From Rhododendron vialii (lineage: Eukaryota; Streptophyta; Magnoliopsida; Ericales; Ericaceae), in assembly GCF_030253575.1 (NCBI RefSeq), contig NC_080567.1:17239001-17303000 (forward strand): 64,000 nucleotides of DNA, in the 5' to 3' direction. Below the pieces are notes generated by a model. It ran no database searches, was not told the DNA's origin, and was given only the letters and a program-made list of their open reading frames with translations. The position numbers were made by a program, and so were the translations under genes. Every line of letters starts with the position of its first letter. Within the stretch, counting starts at the first letter, position 1. Shown in pieces: positions 25,175 through 51,316 of this stretch.

Positions 25175-26281
25175 GTAAGTTGCCTTTTTTCTTTTTAGCT
25201 GTGTGTCCTTTCTTCATGTGATATTTTGTATCTGTAATAGACATCAAATACTGCTGAGAAGTGTAATTTGAAGTTATAGCTGATTGTTCCTATGATGGCA
25301 CACTTGGGGTCTTTCTATAGCAACCGAGTGTCAGAAAATAAACCCTGCATACTGCATAGTATTGCTGACTTGCTGCAATGGATGGTATGGTTAAAACTTG
25401 GAGTGTAACAATTGTAAGTCTGATTAACTTGTCTGATTTTAGAGACTACAATTTTTTCTGCGTTCTATACAGTCTGTTGTACAGCTACTGCATTTCACTC
25501 CCTGGGACTGATAGTGCGCATTAGCTTCCCATTTGCTCAAACATTTAATGATGTCTTTAGTCATTTTTGCCTTTTGCTTCTGTACTATTTTAAATCTCAG
25601 CCATCCACTCTTGAGATTTGAAACTTCTTCAATTGATTCTCCTTTGGCATCAAACGAAGAAAACTTTCTTGGGTATCCAGGCCCTTGTCACACTTATACT
25701 CAAATTCAGTCGGTTTTTTGTGCTGATTTTTATTTATATCCCCGTGTAGAACTTCTTATATTCAATCATTCAATCCCACTCTTTGCCTAAGGGATGGAGT
25801 TGAATTCCGAAATGATTGGCTTTAGTACATGCTATGTCTTTTCTCGGAATTGATTTTAGTTTCGTATTGATTTCCTTTGATCGACCTTTACAACTCAGTA
25901 TTTACAAATGGTACCATTTACCCTTAACTCACTTTTTACCGGGAAAGGAAAAGTTTTGGAAAATGCAAAACTTATATGTGGAAGACAAGAAATGTTGAAT
26001 GGTATCATTTTGATATGTAATCTTTTTTCAAAGGAGGATTACATGCCATGATATTCTGCAGTGTAGTATTGTCTTTGGCTGCAACCTGATAATATGTTGG
26101 TATATATTTACTGTTTGGGAGTTAGCAATGTGTGAGAGCAGTTTTGAATTATTATAGACAGTCTGGAACATGGTTTCTTGATCGAAATTCCAGACTGTGA
26201 TTCGTTCATCTGGAATGAAGATGAAAAGTAGGGAATTGTTTTTCTGCAAATTCTTATGCATTTTGGCTTTTTCCAGTCATA

Positions 26282-26453
26282 GTTGGCAGTACTATCAGGA
26301 GAAGCCGAGGATGCTGCTGCTGCTATTGTGGCTTGGCTGCAGCTGGGGACCAAACTCTCTGATGTGGTTCCAAACAAGAGTGATGCACTTGCATTGTTTG
26401 ACCTCTTCAGAGATGAAGGCTACATTTTGACCGAGCATGAGGGAAGATTTTGT
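26282..26453 (+). pseudogene. Orphan exon-like fragment 2
   Basis: An acceptor-like CATAG precedes an open 57-codon segment that runs to a GTATGT donor. It reads [20 protein letters not shown] and then [20 protein letters not shown]. It lies 1.1 kb after fragment 1 on the same strand and may belong to the same unidentified gene. No clear exons were found before or after, so the gene is either broken or too diverged for me to complete. Confidence 0.5.
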
Positions 26454-27858
26454 GTATGTACATCCCTACCTTTGTTCCCAATTCAGTCTTTCTTTTGTTT
26501 TCTTGGATATCTCTCTCCTTTTCTAGGATGACGTTTTGTTGCAGGGAGATATATGAACTACAGAAACGATCATGCAACAAGGAAAAACACAAACAATAAT
26601 GGTTTAGAGAAACGCTCTCTAGACTCTTTTCATTCAATAATAATCAATAACTCTCCTAACCTGAAGGCTTACAACTTATTAAATAGGAAGAAACCCCTAA
26701 CCCTAATTGATTTGCCCAAAAGGAAGCCAAATCAATTAATTAATAGAAATTACCAAAAACAAAAAATTGTACTTAACTAGGAAATCAAATACAAGAAAGA
26801 AATATAAGGTTGCCAAAACAAGCGGCAACTAAAACGGAATTTCCTAACAAAACAATAAACTCAAAATAATGCATAATTAATATATAATCTTCATATTTCT
26901 GTTTTGCATCACGTTTACTAGTATATAAAGTCTTCATGATTTATGGGTAGAGATTCGGTAGATTCATAGATTATGATGTTCTAGCGCATCCAAACAGTTG
27001 AGTTTGCTCCCCTTCCAGTGAGTAGGCTAGCAAGTGTTTCTAGAAATCACAGTTACGGAATTTTGATGACCCCCAGTAGTTCTGGTCCTGGAAGAATATA
27101 TACATCCTAAGATTATAGGGCTAATCACTTTGGGCAGACCGAAATATAGCCAATTTATTCAAGGTTCTACTGCTTTTTTACTGTTCAAGTATCTTCTCCT
27201 TCTCTCCCAATCTTGCAAAACGCACGAGAAGCAGTTTATGAAATAATGAACGCAATAGTGAATTTATTGGTTGTCAATCTCAAACGAGAAGCAGTTTATG
27301 TGGTGGGTTTCTTGCCATTAGATATTTTCAACTTCGTTCTTCCAACTGAAGCTGTTGAAATGTTATTGACCACTAAACACTTTCCCTGTGAAAGTTAAAA
27401 GAATTGAGTGGTTGACAAATATTTAACTCCATCTTTTTGCTATCCTTTATTTATTTTGAGCTTTTTCGTAAAAGGGTCAAAGTGAAGATGGCAAAAAAAG
27501 AGTCAAAAATCAGGAGGCCTGTAAAATCCACAAATTAAACACCTTTAGGTTAAAGATGTATTTTGTCATTTCAAAATTTTGGGACCTTGCATCAGTCAAT
27601 AAATGACTAACATGATGACGTTGGTGAAGATTTATTTTTTTCCTTTTGTCATTTGTTTACCTTTTTTTCATAAGCTTATGATAGGAAGAGCAAAACTCAC
27701 TACTTATTGCCATTTTGAATTTAGCTCTGTGGTTGAATTTAATGTTCAAAGAAGGCTCCTTGCCACCAGACATTCTCAAGTCAATGTTCCATGTCAGCTA
27801 GCTGCATTGGCAAGAGAAAAATTCTGGAATCAAAACAAGGAGGTTGTTTGATGACTGC
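26454..27858. other. No gene; probable retroelement pieces
   Basis: The stretch 26560-26890, which contains GAAGGCTTACAACTTATTAA and CCCCTAACCCTAATTGATT, looks like a reversed LTR-type repeat, but no ends were defined. The frames 27213-27398 and 27603-27851 are not recognisable. Confidence 0.35.
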
Positions 27859-28176
27859 AGACGAGGGGGAAAGCCGCAAATATCACTGGACTATGTTCTA
27901 AGGGAGTTCAACCATGTCAAAAAGGACGGTGAACTAGTGGGTTGGTCGGTCGATGGTCTCATTGCAAGGCCTTTGCCTAACAAAATTCGTCCTGGAAACC
28001 TTTCCTCTGCTGTAATATGTTGACCTAAATATGCAGAAAGAAAGCATGCGATCACCCAGGTAGACATTTGCAAGCAAATAAATAAGGGAAGGAAATCCCT
28101 TCCTATGCTGCAAGAAGTGGCTTCAGCCAAGGGGAAAGATGGAAGGGAGAAGTCGAAGTTTGTGGGACAAGACTAG
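27859..28176 (+). pseudogene. Unidentified basic frame with one stop
   Basis: About 105 codons share one frame with a single stop at 28021-28023. The first part reads ISLDYVLREFNHVKKDGELV and the second is Lys-rich (CKQINKGRKSLPML, KGKDGREKSKF). A CTGCAG acceptor-like site precedes it. It may be part of a retroelement or of the broken gene upstream. Family not recognised. Confidence 0.3.
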
Positions 28177-28930
28177 AACACCCTTGGTGGATGGAAGGAC
28201 CACGAAGATGTGTACTGATAATTGGAACTTGCAGGTCCGCTGGCGGGAGTGGACCTGGGGGAGGGTTGCAACTTAAACTTTCCAAATGATTAGCTGCTAA
28301 TTTCAGAACAATATTCATTCATTGTGTGCTACCGTGGTGTTTGTCTAGGTCTCAGAAAAGTTCCCCATTGAATTTTTGAGAGAGTTGATGAAATGTTGCA
28401 CGAGGTCGTGGAAAAACTTCTCTTGCAATGTTAGCTTGAGTTTACGAAAAGAGAATATTCAGTAGCAATCGGGTTCACTAATTGGATTCTGCCTCCTGGA
28501 TACTGATCATTCTTGTTGTATTAATATAGTTTTCATTGAGGAAAATTGAGATTCAAGGCACTTCCTAACGAAACAAATATTTTTCTGCAGTGTTAATTTG
28601 TTCCAAAAAAAAAAAAATTGTTTCCTACCATTGTATTACGAACTTACAACAGCCATGACTTGTATGCACTGAAGTTGCCGTGCATTCAAAAAATTTCCTC
28701 TGCTTATTGGAGTGCTAAATCCGCTTTTTAAGAGATGAGGAATCAGGCGAAAAAAAATCGACCAACCACGAAGAGTGGTAGCCTTGTTATTCCAGGCTTA
28801 CTTCTAAGTTGTTTCGGTGGTCAAGAGGTTCCAAGGTCGTGAGATCAACGGCTCTTCAAACTTTGGCCTCCTACGAAACCAACCCGACTATGCTCTACTA
28901 GCCGTTTGTAAGGCGGTAAAAGATCGCGCA
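28177..28930. other. No gene seen
   Basis: AT-rich with an A-run at about 28604-28616. The frame 28817-29029 overlaps the start of the JmjC remnant in a different frame and is a shadow. Confidence 0.4.
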
Positions 28931-28931
28931 G

Positions 28932-31077
28932 CAGCAGAACGACTGCTTTCGAACGGGGTATGCTGGGCTTGCGGGAGACTGCAAGGCCCACGTGGATTGG
29001 ACCAGTTAAGCCCTGGGGTGTTTTCCTGAGGCTATGAATTTGTGGATTGGGAATGAGTTGTCGGTGGCCTCATTCCATAGGGATCATTATGAGAATCTGT
29101 ATGCTGTTGTTACGGGGGAGAAGCATTTCCTTCTCCTTCTGCCTATGGACGTCCACCGGATGTACATCCGAGACTAGCCTAATGCTCAGTACCACTACTC
29201 AAAGGTCTGTCTGTTATATAGTACATATACTGTATATGATATAGTAGTAGACGTATACGGATATTTATGTGTAATTTTTTCTTTCTCCCATGCCTGTTTG
29301 ATTGGATGAATTTGTCGTGGAATTAGATTGCAAATACTGGCATTTTTGGTGGTTGAACGAAACAAATTGATGAAATTTTTAGATGTCTATTGAACAAGTT
29401 TCCAAACATAGATGGTTTGTTTGTTTTGATGAGACTGATAGTGAATGGATAATAATTTCACCAGATATCGCATCAGAATAATTGTCATATGTTAATAATA
29501 CCACATCTGCCAGACTGTGTTCCTCACTTTTCGGAATTATATATTTGATGGATGTTAATCCGGGCCAAAATAGTTATGTGGTCATTTTGGATGTATAGTC
29601 CAATCCGAAATTCATATCCAGTGAAACAAATGGCGACAGAACATATAATAGATTGGGATGTATAAAGATGTCTGGTATTGTCGTAGGTTCATTCACACTC
29701 AGTCTGTAATCAAATATGGTTTTAACTACGAAAGATATCTCTAGTGTCATTGTCATTAGTCTGTTCAGTCAAACATGGCTTTAAGTACTAGAGATTTTGT
29801 TCTGATTTGCAGAACAGTGGAGAGTTCAAATTGGAGCTTGAAGATCCAGTGAGATATGTGCCTTGGTGCAGTGTGGATCCTTAGCCGTCCCCGGAGAATA
29901 GGGAGATGGACAGGTCGAAATTTCCATTGTACTTTGATGGACCAAAGCCATTTGAAGGCACAGTAAAGGCTGCGGATATTGTGTACTTGTAAGTTGTAAG
30001 CTTTATTCTTCGTGGTTAACATTCTTGTTCCTACTTAAATGAACTCTGGATTTGTTCAGAGGTTCTGAAAGTTGGCCCTGGTAATGAAACTGTAATTGAG
30101 AAGCTGATTGACATGTCACCTTGCATACCAAATTCAAAACGTTGACACCAGAAACGAAGAATTGATGAGATGTGGTATGACAATGTAGGTCAGTCAGTTA
30201 CATTCTAGCTACAATATTAAGATATTGTGCTGCAAATTTGAATTTAGTTTTGAGTTTAACTGTTTAAGTCACTCCAAAGAACTTCAACTCCAGGCTCCAG
30301 CAGATAAGTGATAACTACGGCTTATAGATTTGTGTTTTCAAAGTGAAACTATGAAAAAATGAGTTAGGGGTTGCTGAAGGACAGAATCGTGAAGGTTTTT
30401 GCTTTAATGCATTAATTCAACGGGTCTTGCTAACCACCACCCATTAGGCAATGGATAATATGTATATAATGTCAAACAAGTTGGAATTTCGGTACACATC
30501 TCATGGTCATGGATGGTAATACAATTTCACGGCTATCAAATCACTTTTCTCGGATATTGATACATCTTTTACGCAATATCTGCAGCCCTAAGGGTTGCGG
30601 TTAGGACTTTCGTAATTCAATTGCCTGGCGAGTGTCCTTCAATTTAAATTTGCACCTTTTTTAGGGGTAATCATTGGATACTGTACGTTGGTTATTTGGC
30701 CTTCTAACAAGTTTGGAGTGTAAAATGCTGTTTTCTATTTAATGTTCCGCTTATTAGGGAAATTGCCATCTTTGGTCTTCAGATTTGTTCCGGTAGCATA
30801 AAATCTCCAACTTGTTTCTGAATATATTGATGGATAGTTGGATAAAATGATGCTGAATTTCTGGAGTTTTTGCAGGCCAAGTATGTGTTTCATCATGTTA
30901 GACAAACTCCAGACAGCAGAGGAAGCACTATCGCAATAAACTACTGTAATTAGAACTTTAAGCTTCTTCTGTTGGTGTGATTCTAAAGGAGTATAAGAAA
31001 CTGAAGTCCATTTTATCTGGCTATGATATGCAGTTCGATATGAAATATGCCTACTTCGACTTCTTGCAATTCGGATA
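28932..31077 (+). pseudogene. JmjC-domain oxygenase pseudogene (JMJ32-like)
   Basis: The C-terminal half of a JmjC (cupin, Fe(II)/2-oxoglutarate) hydroxylase or demethylase of the JMJ32/JMJD7 type. Piece 1 (28932-29212) reads QQNDCFRTGYAG, ALGCFPEAMNLWIG and FHRDHYENLYAVVTGEKHFL; HRD supplies the iron-binding H and D. Piece 2 (about 29814-29992) reads GEFKLELEDPVRYVPWCSVD and FPLYFDGPKPFEGTVKAADI. Piece 3 (30874-31077) reads FHHVRQTPDSRGSTIAINY, then after an insertion YDMQFDMKYAYFDFLQ and a stop. Stops occur in place of residues after WTS, YIRD and SVD, and the N-terminal third is missing. Introns are kept, so this is a decayed gene copy and not a retrocopy. An intact parent is presumably elsewhere in the genome. 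Confidence 0.88.
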
Positions 31078-36992: not shown

Positions 36993-39900
36993 TCAGTCCA
37001 CGACCTTCGGAACAGAGGTACCAGAGAAAATGTGACCTATCTGGTAAGGAATCTTGTTGAGTGTAGAGTCTCTGTGAAGTGGCTGATCAGACGGCCGTGA
37101 AACACCAGGGATAACCGCCATAATGGCCTGTCTTTCCCTATACGATGCCCAAGTGACCAAATAAAGCCCCGCAATGATAAATGATCCCCCTAGAATGCTG
37201 TTTCCACAGGTAAAGTTAGAACAGCTATTAGGGTTTTAGCTCCAAAACAAGTTCAGATGTTCATGAAACTACTTCACTGGAAAATATCTTTTTGGTCAGG
37301 GCCAAGTGTCACGTGTTTTTAAAGAATAAATAGTAGGTTGCGTAAAGGATCCAAAGTGATGAGAGCAAACCTTCCCAAATAAATAGGGCTTCCAAGGAAA
37401 ACTGTTGATAAGAAGGCAGATGCAGCAGGTTGAAGAGGATTATAAAGAGCAACCAAAGCAGGTCCCAGAATCTTGTTGGACCATGTTAAAAGTCCATAGT
37501 TAAGGGCGGACGCAACGATTCCCTGTAAAAACAAAGGATAGGTCAAAATGTTCTTATCTAGTATTTCCTTTCAACAAGATAGACAACAGAAATCACCAGA
37601 AACTGCTCAATCTAGTTATTGAAATTAAAGGAAACTCTAGTCCAACTGATCAATCTGGACCTATTCCTAAACAACCCACCCTGTTTTGGCTGGCGTAAAA
37701 TCTAAATGGAACTTCTGTGTAGGTAAACTACAGGCGACTATATGTTCTTTTTTTTTTTTGGGACAATGGAGGCCAAAGCTTAACTACAAAGCCTGAGGGC
37801 GAACACCACTCCACATGGGGCTGTCATGAGCTAAAAAATCAAGAATCGAACAAGGATGATCAGTTGGAGCGCATCGTGCACCAACTGATCTGCACAAGCA
37901 TTAGAGTCACGAGACTCACGACTCACATGCTGGATATGACATTCTCAGTTTCATGCAATAATTAGTCTACCGCTTATCCTGTTGTGATTTTTTAATGTGA
38001 AAAGAAGATAACAAGCCATGAAATTTCAGAACTGCACTATCCTTGCTACATAGATAGCACAAAGAAATTAAATTGTTGAGCAGAATTGCTGACCTAAGGT
38101 AAAAATGAAATTAACTAGCAAAAGTCTACGAACATAACTTTTAAACACAATTCCGTTTGCGTGCAGAGCTATTTGATGCACGTGGACCCATGTGCATCGA
38201 ACGGCTCCGGTCACTGTTGCGTCCGGACTTGTGCTTTAAAGTTGTGTTAGTAGCATTGCTCATTAACTAGAGACTAACTGCAACTTGAAAAAAAAAAAGG
38301 CAAAGAAAGAAGAAAGATACTTACGGCATAGAGTACGGCAAACATCTCAGACTTGGTCAAACTCCAGTCTGTTGACTCGTTGGTTGTAAACAAAGCTGTC
38401 ACTACCATAAGTACAGCACCAAAAAAGTATGAATATGCTGTCACTGATAGGCTGGCAGGATACCTTGCAAGAAGTGGAGCCTGAAATAATTTTACAGCGA
38501 TAGGTCAAACTCCACATCAACAAACATCAGCTCTAAGCAATCCCACACATAACTACAACATTTCCTTTTATAGTATATCCCATGGAGGTTGTCAATCAGC
38601 TGTCCTGGCGCTAATTGTGTTATACTACATAAAATTAAATCATAAGATGATTTGGATATATATCCCATACATGAGCCTTCCATCTTTCAGGAAGTATAAT
38701 TAAGAAAATGTAAACAATGAAGTTGAATTGAGAAATAAGACTCAGCAAAAAAAAGAATTGAGAAATAAGAATAGATATATTAAAACGTGGTTGCAGTTGC
38801 AGATAAAACTGGAAAACAATACACTTGCTATAAGCACAAAAACGGAGAAAGGACCACCCATTTAAATCCATGCAACTACGAACAACAGAAAAGTAACCCA
38901 ACCCAATGGTTGTGTAGCTGCACTTAGGTGCAGTGAGGTTGTAGGTTCAATTCAAATGGTGAGGAAGTTGATACACCTTGGTGATGGGTTGGGAAGGGGT
39001 TTGGGATAATATAAATTATTCTAACACATGACCAAGAAAAAAAGTAAGCATAAACATTGCTCGAGCAACTGGAAACCCCAAAAGACATCCAATAGTGTTT
39101 TAAACAAATAGAGCCAGCTGCATTTTCAGGTTCATGCGAATATGCAGGTATCAGCAAAAAGTATTCCAGAACCTCTTATCAAAACTACTGCCAGCAGACA
39201 AGGTAGATTGATGTACCCAGATGGGGGAGGTCAGAATGGACGTGGACCAGAGAAGGGGAGAGACACAGGACTCCACCTGAGCTGCACCTCCTTGAGGTAG
39301 GGGGACCACTTCACGGACCCATAAACCATCTCATTTGCCCCTGAAGGGAAAGGGAATGCACACCCAAATAAGGAGAACAAAGATTGGGAACAAGAGGACG
39401 GGGGAACGCGAGTCCGCTGGGGACCATTTGTGAGGAGAGCAAAGGTATATAAGGAGAATGAAGATTGAAGCGTAGGTAACTTCTTCCACATTCTTTCCTT
39501 TCAAAAACCCTAATTTCTCCTACGGTGACTGACTTGACATACAGAGGGTCCTTTGAAGACAGCAAATGAAAGGACAATTATCCTTAATTACTCAAGACTC
39601 AATATACGGTTTATTTTTCTGGGAGAGACGGGGAGATACATAACTATTAACTTCCTGATAAGCTTATGATCCCTCAAAAGTCAACTATTTATTAGTGTTT
39701 TGCTCATCACAGACTTTCTCTTGAAGTGGTACCCAGCTTTTTGGCTTGTTCTACTGTAGCTACATCATTTGGCTTAACATTAAAAACTGAAAATGATATC
39801 AATGCAAGATCAGATTTTGCTTTGAGTATGATAATGCGAATACAAAAGACAAAAAGAGGGAACCAGTCCCCCACTGGCGAGAATGCAAGAAGGGTGTGAT

Positions 39901-41294
39901 CACACACAATTCCACACAAACATAATTCCAAAAATAGAAGTCCTCAAATACATTCGAGAACCAGAAGGTTATCAGCCAAATTTAAGGTCGTCAAATTAAG
40001 AATTTGGTACTGAATGGAAGTCCACTATTGTTACCAGCTAGGCCTCTTGAAGAGTATGAGAAAAAAATTGGCATTCTGCAATAGTGTAATTGTATCTTCA
40101 TGTACTTGGGAAAGGCAGGATGTGATATTTTAAGTGTTTTTTGTGTGTGCCTGCAATCTGAAATGTAATTGCCAAATATATGGAGGATTGCAGTGGATAA
40201 AGAAGCCTTTGGGGACGACTCAGAGGTGGGGTGGTTTGAAACCCCAATTGAAACAATTTTTCAAGCTCACAATACTTATCAAGGGATGGAGAATTCATTA
40301 AACTTGAGGTAAGATCCTTTAGGAGGCATAAAGACGAAGGGACTCACCAGTTTCCCTTGGAAGGCAATTTGGTACGTAAGAACTTTCACAGGTTGCTTCT
40401 TTTGAGTTAGTGAGATAAAAGATTTTAGTTGTTTATACCCAAGCAGTATGGCTTGGTTCAAGTACAATGCTACCAAAGTACAATGAAATGATATTTCGAA
40501 TGTACTGCTCTTAATAGCACAACCAGGAAGTAAGGACACAGAATGTCTTTTAAAAAGTAGGACATGGACATTAGGAAATATGCAAATGTATACCACTTAA
40601 AAAAAAGAAAATCATATCGGTAAGATAATCACTTTGATAAATTTTCTCTCTATCCATATTGCCAGTTGCATTTTTCAGAAATTGAAACCTGAAAGATGCT
40701 ATATACATGATTAAAATACGCATATAGCAATGTGCTGATACCAACTAGTGAAATTTTTCAGGATACTCCTAGTTCGACTTGCTCACATGGACTAAGCCAA
40801 CAAGTCTATGAGAGCTATTCACATTAGAAGGAATTACCAAAGTCCATTTGCACTTCATCCAACCATGTTACCTTGAAATAGACTATCAAACTCTGTGAAG
40901 ATGAGATATATGATCAAATACCTGAATTGCTAGATAGGCAGCCATGCACATACAGTTCCCAATTAAGCACAACACGCCAAGGTGCCATTGGTCAATTCCA
41001 AACTCCATAAAACCAGACATCAACCATCCAGCAGGCTCTGGTTGACCCTTCGCACTTATCTCATTATTTGCTGCAAAATCTGACTCCTTGTACCCAATCA
41101 AGGCTGGACCTCGAAATAGAACCATCAATATGGCACCAAACACACATACGAGTGTACCACCAATCTTTGCCTGACCTTCAGTCCTGAGAAGATTCACCGT
41201 TTCTGTGCTGCATAAAAAAGATTTACGTATCATATTAAACAAGCAATTGCAATCTAAGAAATCGGCAAAGAAGTATAACAAAAGTAACACAAAT

Positions 41295-41358
<64 letters not shown>

Positions 41359-42211
41359 AGGATCACATTATTGAGACAAGGTTAGGAATTGATCAACTGA
41401 CCCCATTGTTACAGCTAATATGAATGTAAAGACGGGTATTGCAGGTTGAATAGCAGCGGCATAAGTTGGATTTGTGAAACCAAGACCGAGAAGAAATAAT
41501 AGCTGGTTCCCGAATATCCTATTTCATGTATTCAAAACGACACATACATAACCAAACAGATTGGATTAGAAGGATGTCATGTCGGTCAGAACATCCATAA
41601 TTTTCTAGAAAGCTCAAACGGAAAAGTTACTGAGAGTTAAACTTACCCAGTTAATCCAAGAAAAAAGAATGACATGACGACCCCTCGAGTCATAGGTGGT
41701 CTGACTCTTCTGCACACATGAAACAAGAAGCTTTTCAAACTATTGCACTGTTTATCTACCACAGGTACACGTATTAACTGTTTCTTTAGTGTGTCCAGGC
41801 ATATAGCTAGTTTCCACAAAATGTTAGTTAAGCAGCTAAATGCATTTTATTTTATTTTATTTGGGGGGTGGGGGGTGGGGGGGCGTAATAGCAGCTAAAT
41901 GCATTGTATGTGAATAACATAAAAACAGTCTGAGCTCATTCAATAACACTTCAGAAAAGAAAATTGAACAAAGAACACCGATTATACATTACTTTTGCAC
42001 ATGGTGGATCAGATGAACATATGGGTAGCAGAATGGCAGAAATAAAATTTCGAAAAAAAAATAACCTTGAGGAATTTTTTTTGATTCACAGGGTGTCAAA
42101 GTTTGTAACTTGATTTCAGCATCAATTGAATTTCCTACATTTCAAGTGAAATCTCACCGACCAAATTTGTTCGTCAGATTATCTATACGCATATGCACGT
42201 GCATACATATC

Positions 42212-42256
<45 letters not shown>

Positions 42257-42467
42257 AGGGAGAGGGGACAGACTTTTCACGGACGAAGGCGATGGGAGCG
42301 AGAATGGAGAGGGCGAGAAGGTCGCGATAGACGCAGAAGACGAGCTGGTTTACTCCCACGTCCAGAGCCAGTTTGGTGATGACGTGGTAACCGCCGTAGC
42401 ACAGCTGCACCAACACCATTGCCGCATGCGCCTTCCTCACTTCTATACCCCCCGCCGCCGCCGCCAT
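36993..42467 (-). CDS. WAT1-related transporter, complete seven-exon gene
   Basis: Coding exons (minus): 42467-42274, 41709-41647, 41518-41402, 41207-40922, 38480-38325, 37522-37371, 37197-36993. They sum to 1173 nt, an exact frame of 390 codons plus stop, and every junction is GT-AG. The family is the plant drug/metabolite transporter group (EamA, ten TM helices) named after WALLS ARE THIN1, which exports auxin from the vacuole. The protein shows [20 protein letters not shown] and [14 protein letters not shown] (TM1-2), [79 protein letters not shown] and [20 protein letters not shown]. The pattern resembles At4g19185/At5g45370-type members; the substrate is unknown. The start has context GCGATGG. 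A CT tract precedes the start and a GA tract follows the first donor. Two additional first exons lie upstream at 46.1 and 50.3 kb. Confidence 0.94.
37748..37990 (-). mobile_element. LINE 3' fragment in WAT1 intron 5
   Basis: On the minus strand the frame reads [20 protein letters not shown] and LVHDAL, the end of a LINE RNase H-like domain, followed by a 3' UTR and a poly-A that appears as the T-run at 37748-37759. It is in the same orientation as the host gene. The target duplication was not found. Confidence 0.7.
38897..39039 (+). mobile_element. tRNA-derived SINE in WAT1 intron 4
   Basis: About 143 bp with an internal promoter B-box-like GGTTCAATTC, the SINE-style GGTGATGGGTTGGGAAGGGG stretch and an A-rich tail. 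The direct repeat AAAAGTAA flanks it (38889-38896 and 39040-39047). It is antisense to the host gene. Confidence 0.68.
39190..39560 (+). mobile_element. LTR fragment (Gypsy- or TRIM-like) in WAT1 intron 4
   Basis: The block contains a TATA-like GGTATATAAGGAG at about 39444, AAACCCTAATTTCTCC and the phrase GGTGACTGACTTGACAT then AGAGGGTCC. That phrase is characteristic of the R-U5 part of several plant Gypsy LTRs. The start and end dinucleotides and target duplication were not established. Confidence 0.55.
41295..41357. repeat. Compound (GC)n(GA)n microsatellite in WAT1 intron 3
   Basis: A (GC) tract of about 15 bp runs into about 48 bp of GA. It lies between exons 3 and 4 in an intron of only 194 bp, close to the branch region, so length changes here could affect splicing. 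Confidence 0.85.
42213..42251. repeat. (GA)n tract just inside WAT1 intron 1
   Basis: About 39 bp of GA begin some 20 bp after the exon 1 donor on the minus strand. Shorter GA tracts occupy the same place beside the other two first-exon copies. Confidence 0.8.
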
Positions 42468-42494
42468 CGCCCCACCGATAATCACACTCCTCTG

Positions 42495-42498
<4 letters not shown>

Positions 42499-42543
<45 letters not shown>
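42499..42543. repeat. (CT)n tract in WAT1 5' leader
   Basis: About 44 bp of CT (GA in the direction of transcription) lie 32 bp upstream of the start codon. The other two first exons also have a CT tract just upstream. Confidence 0.8.
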
Positions 42544-42545
<2 letters not shown>

Positions 42546-43217
42546 GTTTATGGTGTCGTCGAATCTGAAGATGGAGAAGGAAGATGCTATGCTCGGTTAA
42601 AATGGAAGCAAATCAAAGTATGGTGGAAGCAATTTGGTGGATTTGGATTTTGAAGAAGTTTCTCTCTCTCCCTCTCTGCTTCCGTAGGAGTACTATTTAT
42701 TTTCCATTTTCGTTTTTCTTTCTTTAAACGGGTGCCCAAACTTCAAGTGAAAGATTTGTTTGGAAACCGAGGGAAAGGAAAAGAAAATAACTGAAAAGTT
42801 TAAAAAAAATTCCTCCCTTTTTTTGGTTTGAGAAAGGGAAAAAAAAGAAAAGAGAAGAGAAAATGACCAAGGTCCCGTTCCGTTACGGTTTTTATTTTTT
42901 AAGTATTTTTTTTCGCTTAATGAGATAAATTATTCTCTCATAATATATCATATTTAATTTAAAAATAAATAAATATTTATTTTAATTAACAGAACAGAAC
43001 CCACAAATAAAGTATATAAGGAATAGTAAAATTTTCTTTTTATTTTTCACTTGCTTTCCTTCTTCATTTAATTTTTTCCCTTTTCCGTACTTACTTTTCC
43101 ACAAGTTCTGTTTTTTCGTGCCATCTAATTCTACAATCAAATAATAGGACGGCCTTGATAAAAAATAAAAAATAAAACCAAGAGGACGACCGACTTTAAA
43201 AAAATGGTCTTATTACT
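42544..43217. other. WAT1 promoter region and AT-rich sequence
   Basis: No gene. A purine-rich segment at about 42755-42860 and its loose complement at 43020-43110 (GTTTGGAAACCGAGGGAAAG against CTTTTCCACAAGTTC) may be a decayed MITE like that at 32.4 kb. Confidence 0.35.
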
Positions 43218-43340
43218 GTCAGCCCATTGGGCTGACGATAAGCACACTAGAAAATAAGAAAAACACGTATTTTTGTGTACTTTTTATATCATTTAATATA
43301 AATTCACACACACACACTATTGTCAACCCATTGGGCTGAA
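43218..43340. repeat. Paired near-palindromes bounding a short element
   Basis: GTCAGCCCATTGGGCTGAC at 43218-43236 recurs as GTCAACCCATTGGGCTGA at 43322-43339. Each is a near-perfect palindrome. About 85 bp with a (CA)n stretch lie between. This could be a small MITE or a duplicated binding site. Confidence 0.5.
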
Positions 43341-44210
43341 AATTTAGAATTTTCCTTTAAAAAAAATCCCAAGTAGGATGGCAAATTGTAAATGGATCGA
43401 GTGGTTGGTGAACTGTTTGAGATTCGTTTTTTGTTATTCAAATTTGATGTTTTTTAAATGAACCGAAATTGAGACTTAATTTTTGTATTATTTAATAAAT
43501 GAACCGAGCCCAAATTTGACAGTATTCAGTTCCATTAAGCTCAAAAACCTGAGATTAAAATGTAAATTATACATCAGAGATCCAAGTCAAATACTCCCAA
43601 AAACTCTTCTTTTTTTTTTTTATCGTTTCCTTTCATTCCACATATCAGATATCCAAATAAAATACTACTCCGAAAAAAAAAGAATAAAATATCAGTTGAC
43701 TTCAATTCCTATCTCGATTATCCAGATTACTATTAAAAAATTCATGGAGCCCTTTGCTTGTGTTTAGGAGGGAATTGGCTTATCTCGTCTGCGGTCTTTC
43801 TAATTATACCAAAAAAAGAACCTACATGGACGGCTTGGATCTACACAATGCTGAAATGAGATTTGAACCGTTAAATTGCCAAACGGACGGCTGTACTGTG
43901 CACCAGCCGGCAACCGCATAGCACCATTCCCCAGTTCCACGCGTAGTCGTGCATTTTGTGCGTAATCATCTCTAACACTATTTCTTTTATATATAATTAA
44001 ATGTCCGAACTAATTAATACACACTTCAACAAATTTTAAAAATCTGCAATTAACGATTGGGCAAACTTTATCTTTAGCAAAAGGGGTAGCATTCCAACAA
44101 GTTGTATTGTCCCTTTCAATCCATTTGATTCCTTTTTCAAATTGTATCCTATTGGGCGTCTCTCATTCAGCTTTTAACAAACGAAAATGATATCGTCGGT
44201 ACCAAAATCG
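43341..44210. other. No gene; AT-rich intron or intergenic sequence
   Basis: A piece at 43825-43935 (CATGGACGGCTTGGATC ... ACGGACGGCTGTACTGTGC) resembles plant MITE termini, but ends were not defined. If upstream first exons are used, this stretch is intronic. Confidence 0.35.
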
Positions 44211-44604
44211 TAGGGACGGCCACGTCGGGCCGTCTCCGGCCACCGGACGGCCGATCCGAGCCGTTCAAAAATTTAAAAAAAAAAAAAGCGAGGGGGACTT
44301 TGCAGGAATCAACGGCATCCGAGTTGTGTAGGGTGCTTAATCCGAGCACCTCTTTTTCATGTATATATGTACACCCCTTTTTCCCCTTTTTCGTGTATAT
44401 ATGTATATATATACATCCCCTTTTTCCCCTTTTTTCGTGTATATATGTATATACACGAAAAAGAGGTGCTCGGATCAAGCACCCTACACATCTCGGAGGC
44501 CGTTGATTCCAGCGTAGGCCCCCTCGTTTTTTTCTTTTTAGAATTTTTGGACGACTCGAATCGACCATTTGATGACCGGAAACGGCCCGGCGCGACCGTC
44601 CCCA
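44211..44604. mobile_element. GC-rich foldback element, about 150-bp arms
   Basis: The left arm (44211-44360; TAGGGACGGCCACGTCGG, GGAATCAACGGCATCCGAG, GTAGGGTGCTTAATCCGAGC) is inverted in the right arm (about 44450-44604; GCTCGGATCAAGCACCCTAC, CTCGGAGGCCGTTGATTCC). A loop of CCCCTTTTT and ATATATGTATA repeats separates them. Frames on both strands translate to the same peptide because of the symmetry and are not genes. Confidence 0.8.
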
Positions 44605-45952
44605 CGAGAATATTTTTAAAACAGTTGAGCCCTAAATACCATTGTTTAAGAGAATATTTTTAGTGTTGAAAAACCCTAAATTCAGGATCATCCGCTGGGC
44701 AAATTTCGTGAGAAAACTAAAGTCAACGCTCAAATTGTCACAAAATTTTTTAGGATCCTAACTCGATTTCGTCTAATTCCCTTGTCCGATAAAAAATCTA
44801 CGTATTACTTGCACCATAATCACCTTGGAACGTGTATAATCTAGACATGACAATTTCCTCTGCTTCATGCTTGCCTCTGACCTATCCGTCCCGATCCGAG
44901 CGAGTATTTTCCAATCTGAAAATAAAATAGAGTAGGGATGGTATCTGTTTCACCCATCCCCTTTTAACTCGATCTGAATCCAAGTACATAATTTGTATTT
45001 TCTTTTGTAATGAGTGGGCCTATAGTTGCAGCATCCCCGGATCTCCACAAAAATAGGTTGTTACAAAGATTTTTTTTAATAACTTAGGGTATTATGTGCC
45101 CACACCAACTCATGTTCACCTCAACTAATAATCTTGAAGAGACCAATTTGACCATTTACTTATGAGAATTTCATTAAAGCGAGAAGAACAAAGTTGCGTA
45201 TAGTCTATAGACCGGCTTGTAAGAGCAAATAGCAAATGTATAAGTCAAAGCTTTGACTCGTTGACGAGGAGGGGTTTGGATAACGTAAAAAGACAAGGCC
45301 GGGTGAGTAAAGCCCGTACAAAGCGGACTAGTTTTTTCCAACAAATAAAAAAATAAGGAAAATATAGGCCGCTGATTTTTTGTTAACGTCGCTCTCCTGC
45401 ACATTTGAGAATAACGATAACAAAAAATGGAGTGGCAAAATCATTTCCCCAAACATAAACAAAACATTTTACGACAGTATATGTTTTATGCTCTAATTAT
45501 GTTCTGTTTGTCAACTTCGTTCTCAAACTACAAAATTACTTTATTTCTTCCATCAACTTCCTAATTGGAACCAATTTGATATACTAATTAACGAAATAGA
45601 TAAGAGGAGCATAGTTTGAAGGACGGAGTAGACAAACGGAGCATAGCTTAGGGATGAAATATTAGGCCAAATTGGAAAATTCGTTAACTTTTCCATTCAA
45701 AAAAAGGGATTCCGTTTACCGTTAGACCAAATGGGTTCTAATTAGAAAGTTGAGAGATGAAATAAGTGATTTTTATAATTTAATGACGAAGTAGACAGAA
45801 AAAAAAAAAAAGAAGAGTTGAGATGATTAAAAAAAGAAAAAAACTCTAAACTAGAGGCCGGATGATAGTAGAACGGGAAATTCCAGATCTCACTCACTTG
45901 GTTCTGGGATTTTGTATTGAGCACTCAAAGCATGAAATTCAAAAACAGAGAG
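44605..45952. other. No gene seen
   Basis: AT-rich sequence with scattered homopolymers. No ORF is recognisable and no element ends were found. Confidence 0.4.
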
Positions 45953-46054
45953 GCGAAATTGAGTACCTCTGATCAACTAATTATCGAACAATAAAGCAAT
46001 TAAGCAAACGAATTCGATGGAAACGAAGAGAGAGAGGGGGGTGGGGAGAGAGAC

Positions 46055-46254
46055 CTTTCAAAGAAGTAGGCAAGAGGAGCGAGAATTGAAAGGGCAAGGA
46101 CGTCGCGGTAGACGCAGAAGACGGATTGGCTTACACCAACATTGAGAGCTACTTTCGTGATCACATGGTAACCTCCGCAGGATACCTGTACCACTGCCAT
46201 TGCTGCGTGCGCTTTCCATGTTTCTCCTCGAACAACAACCTCGGTCGCCGCCAT
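46055..46254 (-). CDS. Second WAT1 first exon (1b), candidate alternative first exon
   Basis: An intact copy of exon 1 only: 66 codons plus two bases, starting at the ATG at 46254 and ending at a GT donor (GAAAG then GTCTCT) in the same phase as exon 1 of the complete gene. It reads [39 protein letters not shown] and [20 protein letters not shown]. No stops or shifts. No exon 2-7 copies lie between it and the complete gene 3.6 kb downstream, so its donor could join exon 2 at 41709 across a 4.3-kb intron, giving [12 protein letters not shown] at the junction. It may instead be a remnant of partial tandem duplication. A CT tract precedes the start codon. Confidence 0.65.
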
Positions 46255-46497
46255 CACCCCCTCCTCTCTCTCTCTCTCTCTAGAGGCCGGTGTAGTGAAA
46301 CTGAAAACCTTGTAACTATAAGCTGGGAATTGATGGGTGGTGTTGAAACGGTTGATGAAATGAATTGGTTGGTGCGTCAGGCCGCTTTTATCCTTCGTTG
46401 CAAGCCAACGAATCCGTAATATACTGGAGTATAATGTTTGTTTGGCAAAGGAACTTCCCCAGTAGGGACTGTTTGGATGGAGCTCTTTGTCGGCGAA

Positions 46498-46680
46498 TTT
46501 TTTTTTGGTAATGTCATGGGCTTGCACATACCTCGGACTGATCTTCACACACCTCCCGCAGCCGCTTCACATGCTTATGTGTGAAGGTGAGGTGGCCAAC
46601 AAGAGGAATCGAACCTAAAATCGTTGGAGGAAGTAAACCTCTAACTCCCATGCCAACACAATCAGGCCAACCCCTTGGGA
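46498..46680 (-). mobile_element. tRNA-derived SINE upstream of exon 1b
   Basis: On the minus strand it begins CCAAGGGGTTGGCCTGATTG (A-box-like), has the B-box GGTTCGATTCC, a body ending GTGTGTGAAGATCAG, and a short A tail that appears as the T-run at about 46498-46506. Approximate direct repeats TCGGCGAATTTT and TCGTCAAATTTT flank it. It resembles the Au-type SINE organisation. It breaks the homology between the two duplicated first-exon units. Confidence 0.75.
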
Positions 46681-46692
46681 TCGTCAAATTTT

Positions 46693-47644
46693 AATGCATT
46701 TTTAATCGAAAAGCAGTGTAACAGGCCCAGATGTTCGAACACAAATCCATGGACATGGTAAGAAACATTTAATACACGTGAATTTGACCCTATGAACATG
46801 ATACTTGCACATATCAAACGGCTCGAAACATATTTGTATGCGGACATCTATGCATGTTTAAGCATTTTCCTTATTTGAGTCCTACATCAACATACACACA
46901 AGGTTAGGGGATTATTTCAGTTATTATAACTCTTCTCTGCAATTTTCTCATCGCTTGGTATTTGGCTAAGCTTCCAGAGAAAGAGAGAGAGAGATGCTTC
47001 CTTACCAATTGTCCTTAAATTGCAGCAGCAATACCAGCAAACTAATCCCAAAAGAAGACTTGGGGTTCCTGTGGTGCAGCGGTGCATTGTAGAGGTGTAG
47101 TGCATAATTTGAGTTGTCCATTTTGGCTATAATGATCCAAATTTCAATTCAACAATGGACTACTAGATCTGCAAGAGACGAGATCAAATCTGGACCATTG
47201 ATTGCCGAATGAACGGTAAGGTTAACTATTTTTCATTTTCATATTGAACCCTTGAAGTGCACATCTATACTACACGGTCCCCGGTTCAAAGAACAAGGTT
47301 GTCAAATAAGTATATAGTTTGTTTTTATGTTATTAATCGTATCGAGATACATATCGCATATACTACAATATGTTAACACAGTTTAATATAAAAATGAAAA
47401 ATAATTATACCTTACAAACCAAATATCTATTGCATGATGAAAAAAAAGTTTTAGGATGCAAAATTCCAAGTCTCCCTAATAAGGTGTTTTTAAAACAACA
47501 TGTTGGACTGTTAAAGGCTTTTTGGTGCCTTAGTCAAGGGAATAAAAGAAGATCACTTATCTGATTTATGCAATACAGGATCGATAATGATAAGTTTTTC
47601 TATTAGAGTACCAGTGGATTGAAGTTAAGTTTTTTTTTTTTATC
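46693..47644. other. No gene seen
   Basis: Upstream flank of exon 1b beyond the SINE. A short GA tract lies at 46981-46994. The frame 47370-47564 is not recognisable. Confidence 0.4.
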
Positions 47645-48727
47645 ATACACTCAACATCTTAATCAGAATGTAACCTTCACTGCGAGTTTAGAGCGTCCTA
47701 GAGAGAGAAAAAGAAAGAGCCAGATCTGATCGGGGGAGGGGCCGCCGCCTCTTCCTCCCCCCCCCCCCCCCCCCCCCCCCCCCCGCCTTCCCTCCTCTCT
47801 CTCCACCTCTCAGTTTCTCCCATTTTTCGTTTCTCCCCGCTTCCCCTTCCCGTTCTTTTACCTTTCGTTTTCTGGCCAGTGGTTCGGCCCTCATGACAGG
47901 TTTCCGTCCCTGTTGTTCGGCAATGCTAGTTCAGACCGGAGTTGGAAGGCGGTGAGTGGTGGTCCGGCAAGCGGCGAACGTTGATGTGGTAATAAGGTGA
48001 GATTTGGAGTTAGGGTTTTGCTTCTCTCTTTTACCAGCCGTTTGGCCTGGTTTCTACCGGCCGGTCTCCCCGGCCGGTTTGTACTGGTCTAGGCTTCTAG
48101 ATCCAGTGGGTGTTGGTGGTGGGCAAATAAATTTAGGTAAGGGTTTGGTGTTGGCCAAAGTTTTCAATTGTTGTTCTGCCTTTTTGCGTGTCTGGGTTGT
48201 GCCGGCGGTTTTGGTGCGCGATTGGGTTGTAGTTGAAGATTTTGGTGTTCGGGTGTGGTGTCTGGTGCTCCGCCGCGGTTACGTGAGCCTGTCGTGCTGC
48301 CGACAATCGCGTACCGGAGCTTGAAGTGTCAGCAAGGCTCGCACCGGTGTGGTCCTACCCGTGTCAATGAGGTCGTCGACGGTGGTGGTTTGCCAGTGTT
48401 GTTGTGCTTTTCGGATGCAGATGTGCCGGCGTTTTTAGCTCTTTCTGGACATCGTCCCCAATCAGATTGTATCTTGAGCGTAGCTTGGGGATTGGACTGT
48501 TGTCCCTTGGGACTTCTACGATCACTTTCGACGACTGGCTCCTAGTCCGGCAACTGAGTTGCAGGCCTGCTCCGGCAGGGGTGTCAAGAGTAGTGGTGTC
48601 TTATTGGCATGTACTCGCGTCTAGCTTGTGTTAGTTTTGGTTCAATCCTGTATTTTGTAATGTAATCTGTATTGTCTTCGGGCTTCTCCATTGTATAATG
48701 GATTGACGCTTTCAAAAAAAAAAAAAA
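47645..48727 (+). mobile_element. GC-rich retroposed element with poly-A tail
   Basis: A block of about 1.1 kb with clearly higher GC than its surroundings ends TTGTATAATGGATTGACGCT, then TTC and a 14-base A-run. The sequences AGTTAAG followed by a T-run (about 47626) and AGTTAAT followed by a T-run (48728) look like a target duplication. The ending resembles plant LINE 3' tails. The overlapping frames 48004-48324 and 48255-48545 have no recognised domain. It may be a non-autonomous LINE relative or a retrocopy of an unknown transcript. Confidence 0.6.
47757..47784. repeat. Poly-C tract, 28 bp
   Basis: Twenty-eight consecutive C residues near the 5' end of the GC-rich retroposed block. Such a tract is prone to assembly length error and could form quadruplex or i-motif structures. 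Confidence 0.9.
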
Positions 48728-48881
48728 GTTAATTTTTTTTCAAGTGGTCTGAATATTGCCATAATTAGATCCAATTACTTAAAACACATGTGCAATTTCA
48801 TTTCTCTCTTACAATAAGGTTGGACTTTTTTTTGTATTTATAAGTAATCGTATAATATGTACTGAATTGAGATATGCCTAG

Positions 48882-49517
48882 TAGGGATGGCAATCTCAGT
48901 CGATCCGTTCGAACCCACCCTGTTCCCCGCCCCGAAAATCCTCGAACTTCGGGGATTCGTTTAGGGATTGGGTAAGGTATGGGGAATTTTTTTTTAAAAA
49001 TTCGGGGATCGGGTAGGAGACGGGGATAGGTCTGTCCCCGCCCCGAACCCTACCCGTCCCCGTTCCCCGTTCGTTACCCGCCCCACCCCGTTCCCGAAAT
49101 ATATATATTTATAAATAAAAAGTGATAAATATGACCGTTCCTGATACCTTACTTTATTTTATTTTGTTGGCTTTTCTAATTCTGTTTGTGGAGCTTTGTT
49201 GGCTCCTAACTTCCTGGCCAACCGACAACCGTTACTAGTACTGTTTCCTCAACCCTTTTCCCTGAAAAAAAAATACAAAACAATCCAAGTCCTTTCGGCT
49301 TTCACATGCTAGTATATGCTGTTAGGTGCTGAAATTGTGAAATACAGGTGCCCGAATTCCAAATCCCCGAATTCCACATTTTGGATCCCCGTTCCCCGTT
49401 TGGGTCGGGGATGGAGGAAAAAAACAAATTCCCATTGGGGATCGGGTCGGGGATGGAGATGGGGTAGGGGGTGGAGGTAGTACCCCCGTCCCCAACCCGT
49501 TCCCATTGCCATCCCTA
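48882..49517. mobile_element. Non-autonomous hAT element with perfect TIR and TSD
   Basis: The perfect 13-bp terminal repeats TAGGGATGGCAAT and ATTGCCATCCCTA are flanked by the perfect 8-bp duplication ATGCCTAG (48874-48881 and 49518-49525). Length 636 bp. Subterminal zones are dense in CCCCGTTCCCCG-type motifs on both arms, probably transposase-binding repeats. The centre is AT-rich. No transposase. Confidence 0.95.
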
Positions 49518-49525
49518 ATGCCTAG

Positions 49526-49960
49526 TAGGATACGTCATCGAATTTAATTTGGAATTCCTATAAAAAGGATATGACAAGCATAGTTTCTCGAAGGAGACGA
49601 TACGAATATATTTTTGGCTCTATGCGCGAGTAGACTCTCAATAGAATCCTGGAAAGGAAAGTCACTTCAAGAATCCGAGGGGCATTTGTTGGAAGAGGAT
49701 GGCGGGGTTCCCACATCAAACCAAATAATCACGTATCTGTTGAGATTTAAGTGTAACCATTCTTCGATTTGGTAATCTATATTTTGGTAACAGATTTTGA
49801 GGTAATCCGTTGCTTATTTTCCAGCAATTGTTCCGACAATATCCACTTAATGTGCGCTTCTGCGACTGCCTCGAGCGACAACACTAAGGAGCAGCTCAAA
49901 CAATGTCGTTGTGCGGAGATGCGATTAAGCTGGGCCAAAGAAAGACGTGACTTCCTAATT
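49526..49960. other. No gene; lead-in to COG6 relic
   Basis: No recognisable coding or element ends. The frame 49769-49972 is not assigned. Confidence 0.4.
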
Positions 49961-50021
49961 TTAAATTCCTAAAGCGGTCCTTAATGATCAGGCGATGCCT
50001 AACCAAGGACTTAGGATCAGG

Positions 50022-50026
<5 letters not shown>
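49961..50026 (-). pseudogene. Relic of the COG6 3' end
   Basis: About 66 bp match the last codons and stop of COG6 (55806-55872). Both start TTAAATTCCTAAA on the plus strand and share GGTCCTTA, TGATC, GATGCCTA and CCAAGGACTT. On the minus strand the relic still reads YPDPKSLVRH, against [10 protein letters not shown] in the gene. Identity is about 80 percent by eye. The match stops abruptly in a (CT)n tract, so one edge of a duplication lies there. Confidence 0.82.

Positions 50027-50062
<36 letters not shown>
50025..50062. repeat. (CT)n microsatellite at duplication edge
   Basis: Thirty-eight bp of CT directly abut the COG6 relic on one side and sequence homologous to the 45.95-46.0 kb region on the other. 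Confidence 0.85.
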
Positions 50063-50063
<1 letters not shown>

Positions 50064-50219
50064 GTTAGTACCTCTCCTAAAACTAGCGCACATCCTTAAA
50101 AACAGAAGGCAAATTGAGAGTACGTCATCCATCAATTATCGATAAAAAAAAAAAGCAATTAAGTAAACAAATTCGAAATGAAACAAAATCTGTAAAAACA
50201 CCCAGAGAGAGGTACTGAC

Positions 50220-50443
50220 CTTTCGCAGAAATAGGCAAGAGGAGCGAGAATTGAAAAGGCAAGAACGTCGCGGAAAACGCAAAAGACGAACTGGTTTACG
50301 CCAACGTTGAGAGCTACTTTTGTAATCACGTGGTATCCTCCGTTGAACACTTGTACGAGTGCCATCGCCGTATGTGCTTTCCATATTTCTCCTCCTCGGA
50401 CTCCTCCTCCTCCACCTCCGACAAATTCTGTCGCTGCCGCCAT
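50220..50443 (-). CDS. Third WAT1 first exon (1c), candidate alternative first exon
   Basis: An intact copy of exon 1 only: 74 codons plus two bases, from the ATG at 50443 to a consensus donor (GAAAG then GTCAGT), same phase as the other two. It has a Gly-rich N-terminus ([18 protein letters not shown]), then [39 protein letters not shown] and PLAYFCE. No stop or shift. Its flanks align with exon 1b: on the left with about 45953-46020, on the right through GAAACGGTTGATGAAATGAA and the GCAAGCCAACAAAC segment. It could splice to exon 2 at 41709 over an 8.5-kb intron, or be a partial duplicate without downstream exons. Confidence 0.65.
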
Positions 50444-50633
50444 CACGGTGGCTCCACAGCCCTCCCTCCCTCTCCCCTCTCTTCTCTCTCTAGAGGAATA
50501 GTAGAAGCTAGTTATAACTATAGGCTAGAATAAATGAGTGGTGATGAAACGGTTGATGAAATGAAGTGGTTGGTCCGTTAGGCAGCTTTTATATATCCTT
50601 CATTCGCAAGCCAACAAACCCATCATACGAGAG

Positions 50634-50850
50634 ATTTTTCAGTGCCGAGCGAATATCCCATATGGTTTTCGTTCAGCGCATCTGAACCGTCTGATACACT
50701 TTTGGACTGTTCAGATTGAAACTCTCTCCCTCCTCTCACCCCAACACTTTCTCTCTCCTTTTCTCTTTCCAAATCTAAGCCGTTCAAAAATAAAATGGAC
50801 GGCTCGGATGCGTGAGCTGGCACCACGTGATATCTGCTCGACACTGAAAT
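50634..50850. mobile_element. Foldback MITE upstream of exon 1c
   Basis: The arms starting TTTTTCAGTGCCGAGCGAAT and ending ATCTGCTCGACACTGAAATT are inverted, continuing inward through GCATCTGAACCGTC and GACGGCTCGGATGC. It is absent at the matching place next to exon 1b, so it arrived after that duplication. Confidence 0.7.
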
Positions 50851-51316
50851 TTTTTTCCCATTATACAGTGCTTTTCGTTTGGCCAAACAACTTCCAGGGT
50901 AGGGACTGTTTGGATGGAGGAGAGAAACCGTGAATAACTTATTGACGACTCCGCGCATTTTCAGCCGTCCATTTCGACAATCTCAAAACACATTTGAACG
51001 CTTGCAGCGTCGTAAATTATTTTCACGGCTCTGAAAAAAAGTTTTTCTCATGGATGGAGCTCTTTGTCATGTTGTTTTCAGAAGATGCATGGGACCCAAG
51101 CAAATGACAAGTCGCCCAATTTTGTGTTTTTTCCCCTACCAAATACTACTACTTATAATTGACTGTCAAACCTCCCTCTCAGCACATCTCAACCCCATAT
51201 TCTAGCCATTGGCATCCTATGTAGAACATTCTATATTGTCGTAATCGCTTAAATTTATTGATGCCATTGCCAGTTGTAGTTTTTAAGAGAAAATTATATG
51301 TACATGTATGTGTATA

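Follow-up and report, generated by a model that had tools for sequence, protein, structure and literature searches.

Does a plant transporter gene preceded by three tandem first exons use them as alternatives, or are the extra copies partial duplicates that are dying? This question is raised by a stretch of 64,000 nucleotides from Rhododendron vialii (C11:17239001-17303000, hereafter the window; the genome comprises 533 Mb in 13 contigs), whose minus strand carries one seven-exon gene for an EamA-type transporter. Three first exons, designated 1a, 1b and 1c from the one nearest to exon 2 outwards, lie above a single set of exons 2-7. The initial annotation of this DNA had offered both readings. 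Our analysis favours an alternative-first-exon cluster, in which one UMAMIT-type gene would have gained three tandem first exons by partial tandem duplication, and we put its probability at about 0.68. This is the better supported of the two readings on account of coding selection on the first exons, the core promoter common to 1b and 1c, the phase-2 donors and the CpG content of the exons, which make it likely, not proven.

The three first exons called by the initial annotation were confirmed in position and structure (Table 1). Each begins with ATG, contains no stop codon, has a length of 2 modulo 3 and is followed directly by GT, and the three lengths differ by multiples of three. Joining of 1a, 1b or 1c to exons 2-7 gave, as had been predicted, a single open frame in each case (390, 392 and 400 amino acids, respectively). 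The three isoforms scored 104.8, 93.1 and 92.4 bits against Pfam EamA (cut-off 28.2), with two EamA stretches each. The exon 1 boundary, consisting of E-[KR], phase 2 and a GT donor, was found in all three exons and in six of eight translated distant family members; the matches to the remaining two ended before reaching it. This common donor position implies that 1a, 1b and 1c are true first exons of the EamA/WAT1 family. By its two EamA stretches, its exon 1 boundary and its conserved residues in the first two membrane helices (TM1-TM2), the gene is an EamA/WAT1-family (UMAMIT-type) transporter like its WAT1/UMAMIT (MtN21) relatives in the EamA superfamily, from which it differs by the three first exons that precede its single gene body. 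The annotated distinction between 'very short' and 'medium' N-termini was overstated, 11 (1a), 13 (1b) and 21 (1c) residues preceding the common KAH. No solved structure near enough to place the variable residues was found, the only matches being chance ones (E 0.42-0.48), and no match in Rfam reached gathering scores.

The claim that exons 2-7 are present only once in the window was also upheld. Sensitive tblastn and blastn searches of the window detected neither a second copy nor a recognisable remnant of these exons, including beside 1b and 1c. In a search of the genome, the best place by E-value outside the locus was 37% identical, and the matches listed included no other copy of exons 2-7 and no further gene copy or retrocopy recording a splice junction. 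A fourth first exon was found neither in the rest of the window nor in its flanks, searched over 20 kb on the upper side and 10 kb on the lower, and no relatives turned up in prokaryote genome contigs and viral contigs, where stray plant DNA was sought. As a control, two neighbouring pairs (C11:22.40/22.42 Mb and C8:27.23/27.26 Mb) were taken from the 29 first-exon matches listed in the genome; each pair had its own downstream exon matches, so these look like whole tandem genes.

Neutral evolution of both 1b and 1c, a pattern named in the initial annotation, did not agree with the data. With the three paralogous exons as the only basis, the NG86 estimates of nonsynonymous and synonymous divergence (dN/dS) were 0.084/0.829 for 1b-1c, 0.166/1.03 for 1a-1b and 0.157/1.659 for 1a-1c, that is, ratios of approximately 0.09-0.16. 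The differences were concentrated at third positions, which accounted for 19/29, 23/39 and 26/42 differences, respectively, in a gap-free block of 53 codons (p for the excess 0.0004, 0.0009 and 0.0001). A codon model of the three sequences with a single shared dN/dS ratio (omega) of 0.146 had a log-likelihood (lnL) of -404.43, and a model in which 1b and 1c are both neutral was 8.2 units worse (-412.68); lnL was -412.12 with a neutral 1a branch and -422.55 with all branches neutral. When 1b and 1c were given equal time, which tandem twins require provided that their rates are alike, omega was 0.185 for 1b and 0.154 for 1c, and setting it to 1 resulted in a loss of 5.6 and 6.1 lnL units, respectively (-409.90 and -410.41 versus -404.31). 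Neutrality of 1b alone or of 1c alone is rejected under a clock only. In a model of constraint followed by neutrality, a neutral share of 0.5 of the time since the 1b/1c split cost 2.6-3.0 lnL units, and in a toy neutral simulation, run with assumed mutation parameters, 7-8% of exons were intact after 18 hits and 0.4-0.7% after 36. The combination of a neutral pattern with frame damage that would mark decay since duplication was not found, the both-neutral model being worse and the frames being intact. Given the coding selection, the conserved 1b/1c core promoter and the lack of CpG depletion in the exons, decay of both 1b and 1c since long ago is unlikely, and with it the older form of the dying-duplicate reading.

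Similarity between the first exons was far above chance, with blastn E values of 1e-70 (1b-1c), 4e-36 (1a-1b) and 2e-31 (1a-1c). The homology between 1b and 1c extends over 45941-46421 and 50098-50627 (70% by blastn), with a further upstream match between 46437-46482 and 50874-50919, so that the two copies have the promoter, exon 1 and an initial piece of intron 1 in common. Across the exon block, the core promoter and the proximal intron the two copies differ by 18-38%. The similarity of 1a to 1b and 1c covers the exon plus a short flank at most, with little upstream homology detected, and fourfold sites were identical at 19/27 (1b-1c), 12/24 (1a-1b) and 8/22 (1a-1c) positions. This sequence pattern is consistent with a split of 1a older than that of 1b and 1c; silent sites changing at a rate often assumed for plants would place the separation of 1b and 1c tens of millions of years ago. 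No further mutual similarity was detected among the stretches separating the three exons. Polarising the changes with distant family members was uninformative, the family-majority residue being kept at 14/22 (1a), 13/22 (1b) and 12/22 (1c) positions.

Between 1b and 1c, conservation of the core promoter exceeds that of the proximal intron (counts in Table 1; p 0.004) and the proportion of identical codons among same-residue codons (27/43; p 0.04). At the place aligned with the TATATAAAA box of 1c, 1b holds a reduced GGATAAAAG. The leaders, described in the initial annotation as CT-rich, are GA-rich on the sense strand. The observed/expected ratio of CpG in the first 194 nt was 1.10 (1a), 1.04 (1b) and 1.37 (1c), against 0.48 for the common exons and 0.56 as the median of 318 stretches of the window. 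This retention of CpG fits starts that stay unmethylated, and GC-rich first exons may show the same for other reasons. The three first exons are probably driven by separate promoters. On the minus strand at 46000-46548, the frame of 1b is open for approximately 98 codons above its ATG and contains no in-frame ATG there, probably by chance.

Table 1. Exons, promoter blocks and proximal intron segments of the transporter locus (positions in the window)
Feature	Position	Strand	Remarks
First exon 1a	42274..42467	-	194 nt, phase-2 donor; exon 2 is 564 bp away
First exon 1b	46055..46254	-	200 nt, phase-2 donor; intron to exon 2 would be 4345 bp
First exon 1c	50220..50443	-	224 nt, phase-2 donor; intron to exon 2 would be 8510 bp
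Common exon 2	41647..41709	-	AG acceptor, GT donor
Common exon 3	41402..41518	-	AG acceptor, GT donor
Common exon 4	40922..41207	-	AG acceptor, GT donor
Common exon 5	38325..38480	-	AG acceptor, GT donor
Common exon 6	37371..37522	-	AG acceptor, GT donor
Common exon 7	36993..37197	-	AG acceptor, TGA stop
1b core promoter / 5' leader	46305..46420	-	88/110 ungapped positions identical to those of 1c
1c core promoter / 5' leader	50508..50622	-	carries the TATATAAAA box
Distal promoter block, 1b copy	46425..46495	-	41/58 aligned positions identical to the 1c copy
Distal promoter block, 1c copy	50875..50960	-	common to 1b and 1c
Proximal intron 3' of 1b	45935..46054	-	75/120 positions identical to the 1c counterpart
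Proximal intron 3' of 1c	50090..50219	-	counterpart of the 1b proximal intron

Acceptors were ranked with a crude consensus score, and the exon 2 acceptor was third among the 473 AG sites in 41640-50219. The donors are AAA/GTCTGT (1a), AAG/GTCTCT (1b) and AAG/GTCAGT (1c), the last of which fits the plant consensus best in a by-eye comparison. In the working that we propose, repeated partial duplication, each time covering the promoter, exon 1 and the beginning of intron 1, would have produced the three tandem first exons. A transcript started at 1b or 1c would skip the first exons below it, since first exons lack an acceptor; the acceptor of exon 2 would then be the first that such a transcript meets in the gene, and the phase-2 donor of 1b or 1c would be joined to it. 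The products would be transporters with different N-terminal tails and different TM1-TM2. Anatomy, frame, coding selection and 1b/1c promoter homology are observed; that the promoters are active, that 1b and 1c are joined to exon 2 and that the products differ in any function, we infer. The main use of the array would most likely lie in differing sites or conditions of expression, accompanied by modest differences in the protein.

Several results weigh against an alternative-first-exon cluster. Two AG sites, 49261 and 47697, both between 1c and 1b, outscore the exon 2 acceptor, the second of them at the edge of a repeat of approximately 1 kb, and an acceptor at 42564 in the 1a leader (rank 12/473) could capture transcripts from 1b or 1c. 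The donors of 1a and 1b look weak next to that of 1c. Conservation of the core promoter does not significantly exceed that of the fourfold sites of 1b and 1c (p 0.30), and the promoter segments were picked by eye after alignment, so their p-values are optimistic. Over the 200 bp preceding each ATG, the CpG ratio takes ordinary values (0.58, 0.68 and 0.51). Without a clock, neutrality was rejected neither for 1b alone (lnL -404.03) nor for 1c alone (-405.52) when compared with free omegas (-403.90). Letting either copy be neutral for 0.3 of the period after the 1b/1c split cost only 1.3-1.5 lnL units, and the toy simulation kept 23-24% of exons intact after 10 neutral hits, implying that a short neutral phase is compatible with intactness taken alone.

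Repeats have entered the array since the duplication, between the exons and in the 1c promoter. In that promoter, an insert (~50640-50858) with near-matching inverted ends, resembling a small transposon, separates the two conserved blocks; it belongs to a high-copy repeat with 1444 first-look candidates, and its best other copies are 86-88% identical. The ~1-kb repeat between 1c and 1b (47690-48730) has at least 48 matches, including the window's own, among the best 40 of 229 candidates, and its best other copy is 93% identical. Between 1b and 1a, 400 bp (44208-44607) match their own reverse complement at approximately 75%; this high-copy repeat (2588 first-look candidates) is probably a folded-back transposon. 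A 254-bp copy of part of exon 1c and the start of its intron, 99% identical, lies on the plus strand at C11:9337930-9338183 (L029:4930-5183), directly adjoining a many-copy repeat with 940 first-look candidates, and appears to be a recent capture of this segment at the DNA level. Elsewhere in the window, 26218-30803 is 68-92% similar in several pieces to L033:3694-8811, which lies within 10 kb of the lower end of the window; the pair may represent either a tandem duplication or two repeat copies.

The main rival is that 1b, 1c or both were long useful and have lately been silenced, or now yield truncated or unstable RNA, leaving 1a alone in use. We regard this as unlikely. The small lnL cost of a neutral share of 0.3, which fits either copy with no significant loss, keeps recent silencing in contention, as does the compatibility of 1b alone or 1c alone with neutrality when no clock is imposed; the weak 1b donor, the high-copy insert in the 1c promoter between its conserved blocks and the two repeats separating the first exons also speak for it. 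However, every frame, start and donor is intact, the core promoter is conserved, the exons are not depleted of CpG, and 1c has the best donor of the three by eye.

An improbable alternative is that 1b and 1c are stumps of complete tandem genes that have lost their exons 2-7, were never spliced to the common exon 2 and have been kept by chance. Whole tandem genes of the EamA/WAT1 family do exist in this genome, and Albani et al. (PMC3527215) consider a full-length gene array as the origin of PEP1 of Arabis alpina. However, no recognisable remnant of exons 2-7 was found above 1a, the detectable 1b/1c homology ends shortly inside intron 1 and, on the other side, in the promoter, and the coding conservation needs selection, which a stump cannot supply. 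Such a history could also have preceded an alternative-first-exon cluster.

It is very improbable that upstream starts splice to 42564 in the 1a leader, turning 1a into an internal exon and giving a product with a doubled TM1-TM2 unit or with an additional coding exon upstream. The rank of this acceptor and the open, in-frame junction of 1b or 1c with 97 nt of leader and 1a would permit it, but the topology would be odd, the exon 2 acceptor scores higher, the frame hangs on a GA repeat, a repeat type that readily changes length, and the kept exon 2 phase of the 1b and 1c donors would go unexplained. An assembly artefact, in which the exons 2-7 of three full tandem genes were collapsed, can hardly be credited: apart from the general risk that attends tandem repeats nothing points to it, the 1b/1c divergence is too great for collapse, and the stretches between the exons share no further detected similarity.

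The alternative-first-exon cluster can be compared with known systems. The initial annotation considered its layout unusual for a plant transporter gene. A literature search of titles and the beginnings of abstracts found no alternative first exons in a WAT1-related/UMAMIT gene, which is not proof of absence. As a layout, however, it is not new and has a plant precedent in PEP1, the FLC orthologue of Arabis alpina. In PEP1, according to three reports, a tandem duplication of approximately 2 kb holds exon 1 and parts of the promoter and intron 1, there are two starts, and the first exons of PEP1a and PEP1b both splice to one exon 2, giving transcripts that differ in expression (PMC3527215, PMC7927791, PMC5485006). 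The likeness lies in a partial tandem duplication that takes in the proximal promoter, exon 1 and some of intron 1 and stands, in both genes, above one set of exons 2-7. PEP1 encodes a MADS-box factor and has two copies with highly similar flanks, of which the 1a copy was not amplified in some accessions, and its predicted proteins are identical in accession Paj. The present locus, known from genomic sequence, has three copies that are far more diverged and encode different TM1-TM2. What is noteworthy is the number of copies, their likely age, their greater divergence and the variation in TM1-TM2.

The vertebrate UGT1, GCNT2 and protocadherin clusters have variable first exons with coding diversity (PMC1885805), and resemble the arrangement proposed here in that tandem coding first exons are spliced singly to common exons, producing different N-terminal parts. 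The alpha and gamma protocadherin clusters have over a dozen variable exons, compared with three here, and UGT1 shows positive selection at specific codons (PMC1885805), whereas the present exons are mainly under purifying selection. A long-lived UGT1-like cluster, in which three promoters have for tens of millions of years chosen between TM1-TM2 modules whose differences extend beyond expression to transport properties or targeting, is a tentative extension that we consider doubtful. Alternative first exons occur in ~5% of expressed Arabidopsis genes and 5.9% in rice (PMC2174465). Those classified there as type I (Chen et al., 2007) exclude one another and share the downstream exons, as is proposed for the present locus; in their commonest case the protein is unchanged, and the main text of that paper contains neither 'tandem' nor 'duplication'.

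Several members of the UMAMIT family have been reported to be amino-acid exporters. If the reading proposed here is true, a plant would possess, in this transporter family, a tandem cluster of coding first exons apparently much more diverged than that of PEP1. The locus would also be a caution to annotators who call exons such as 1b and 1c gene fragments, and it would open the question of whether transporters are diversified in a plant through exchange of the first two membrane helices in place of duplication of the whole gene.

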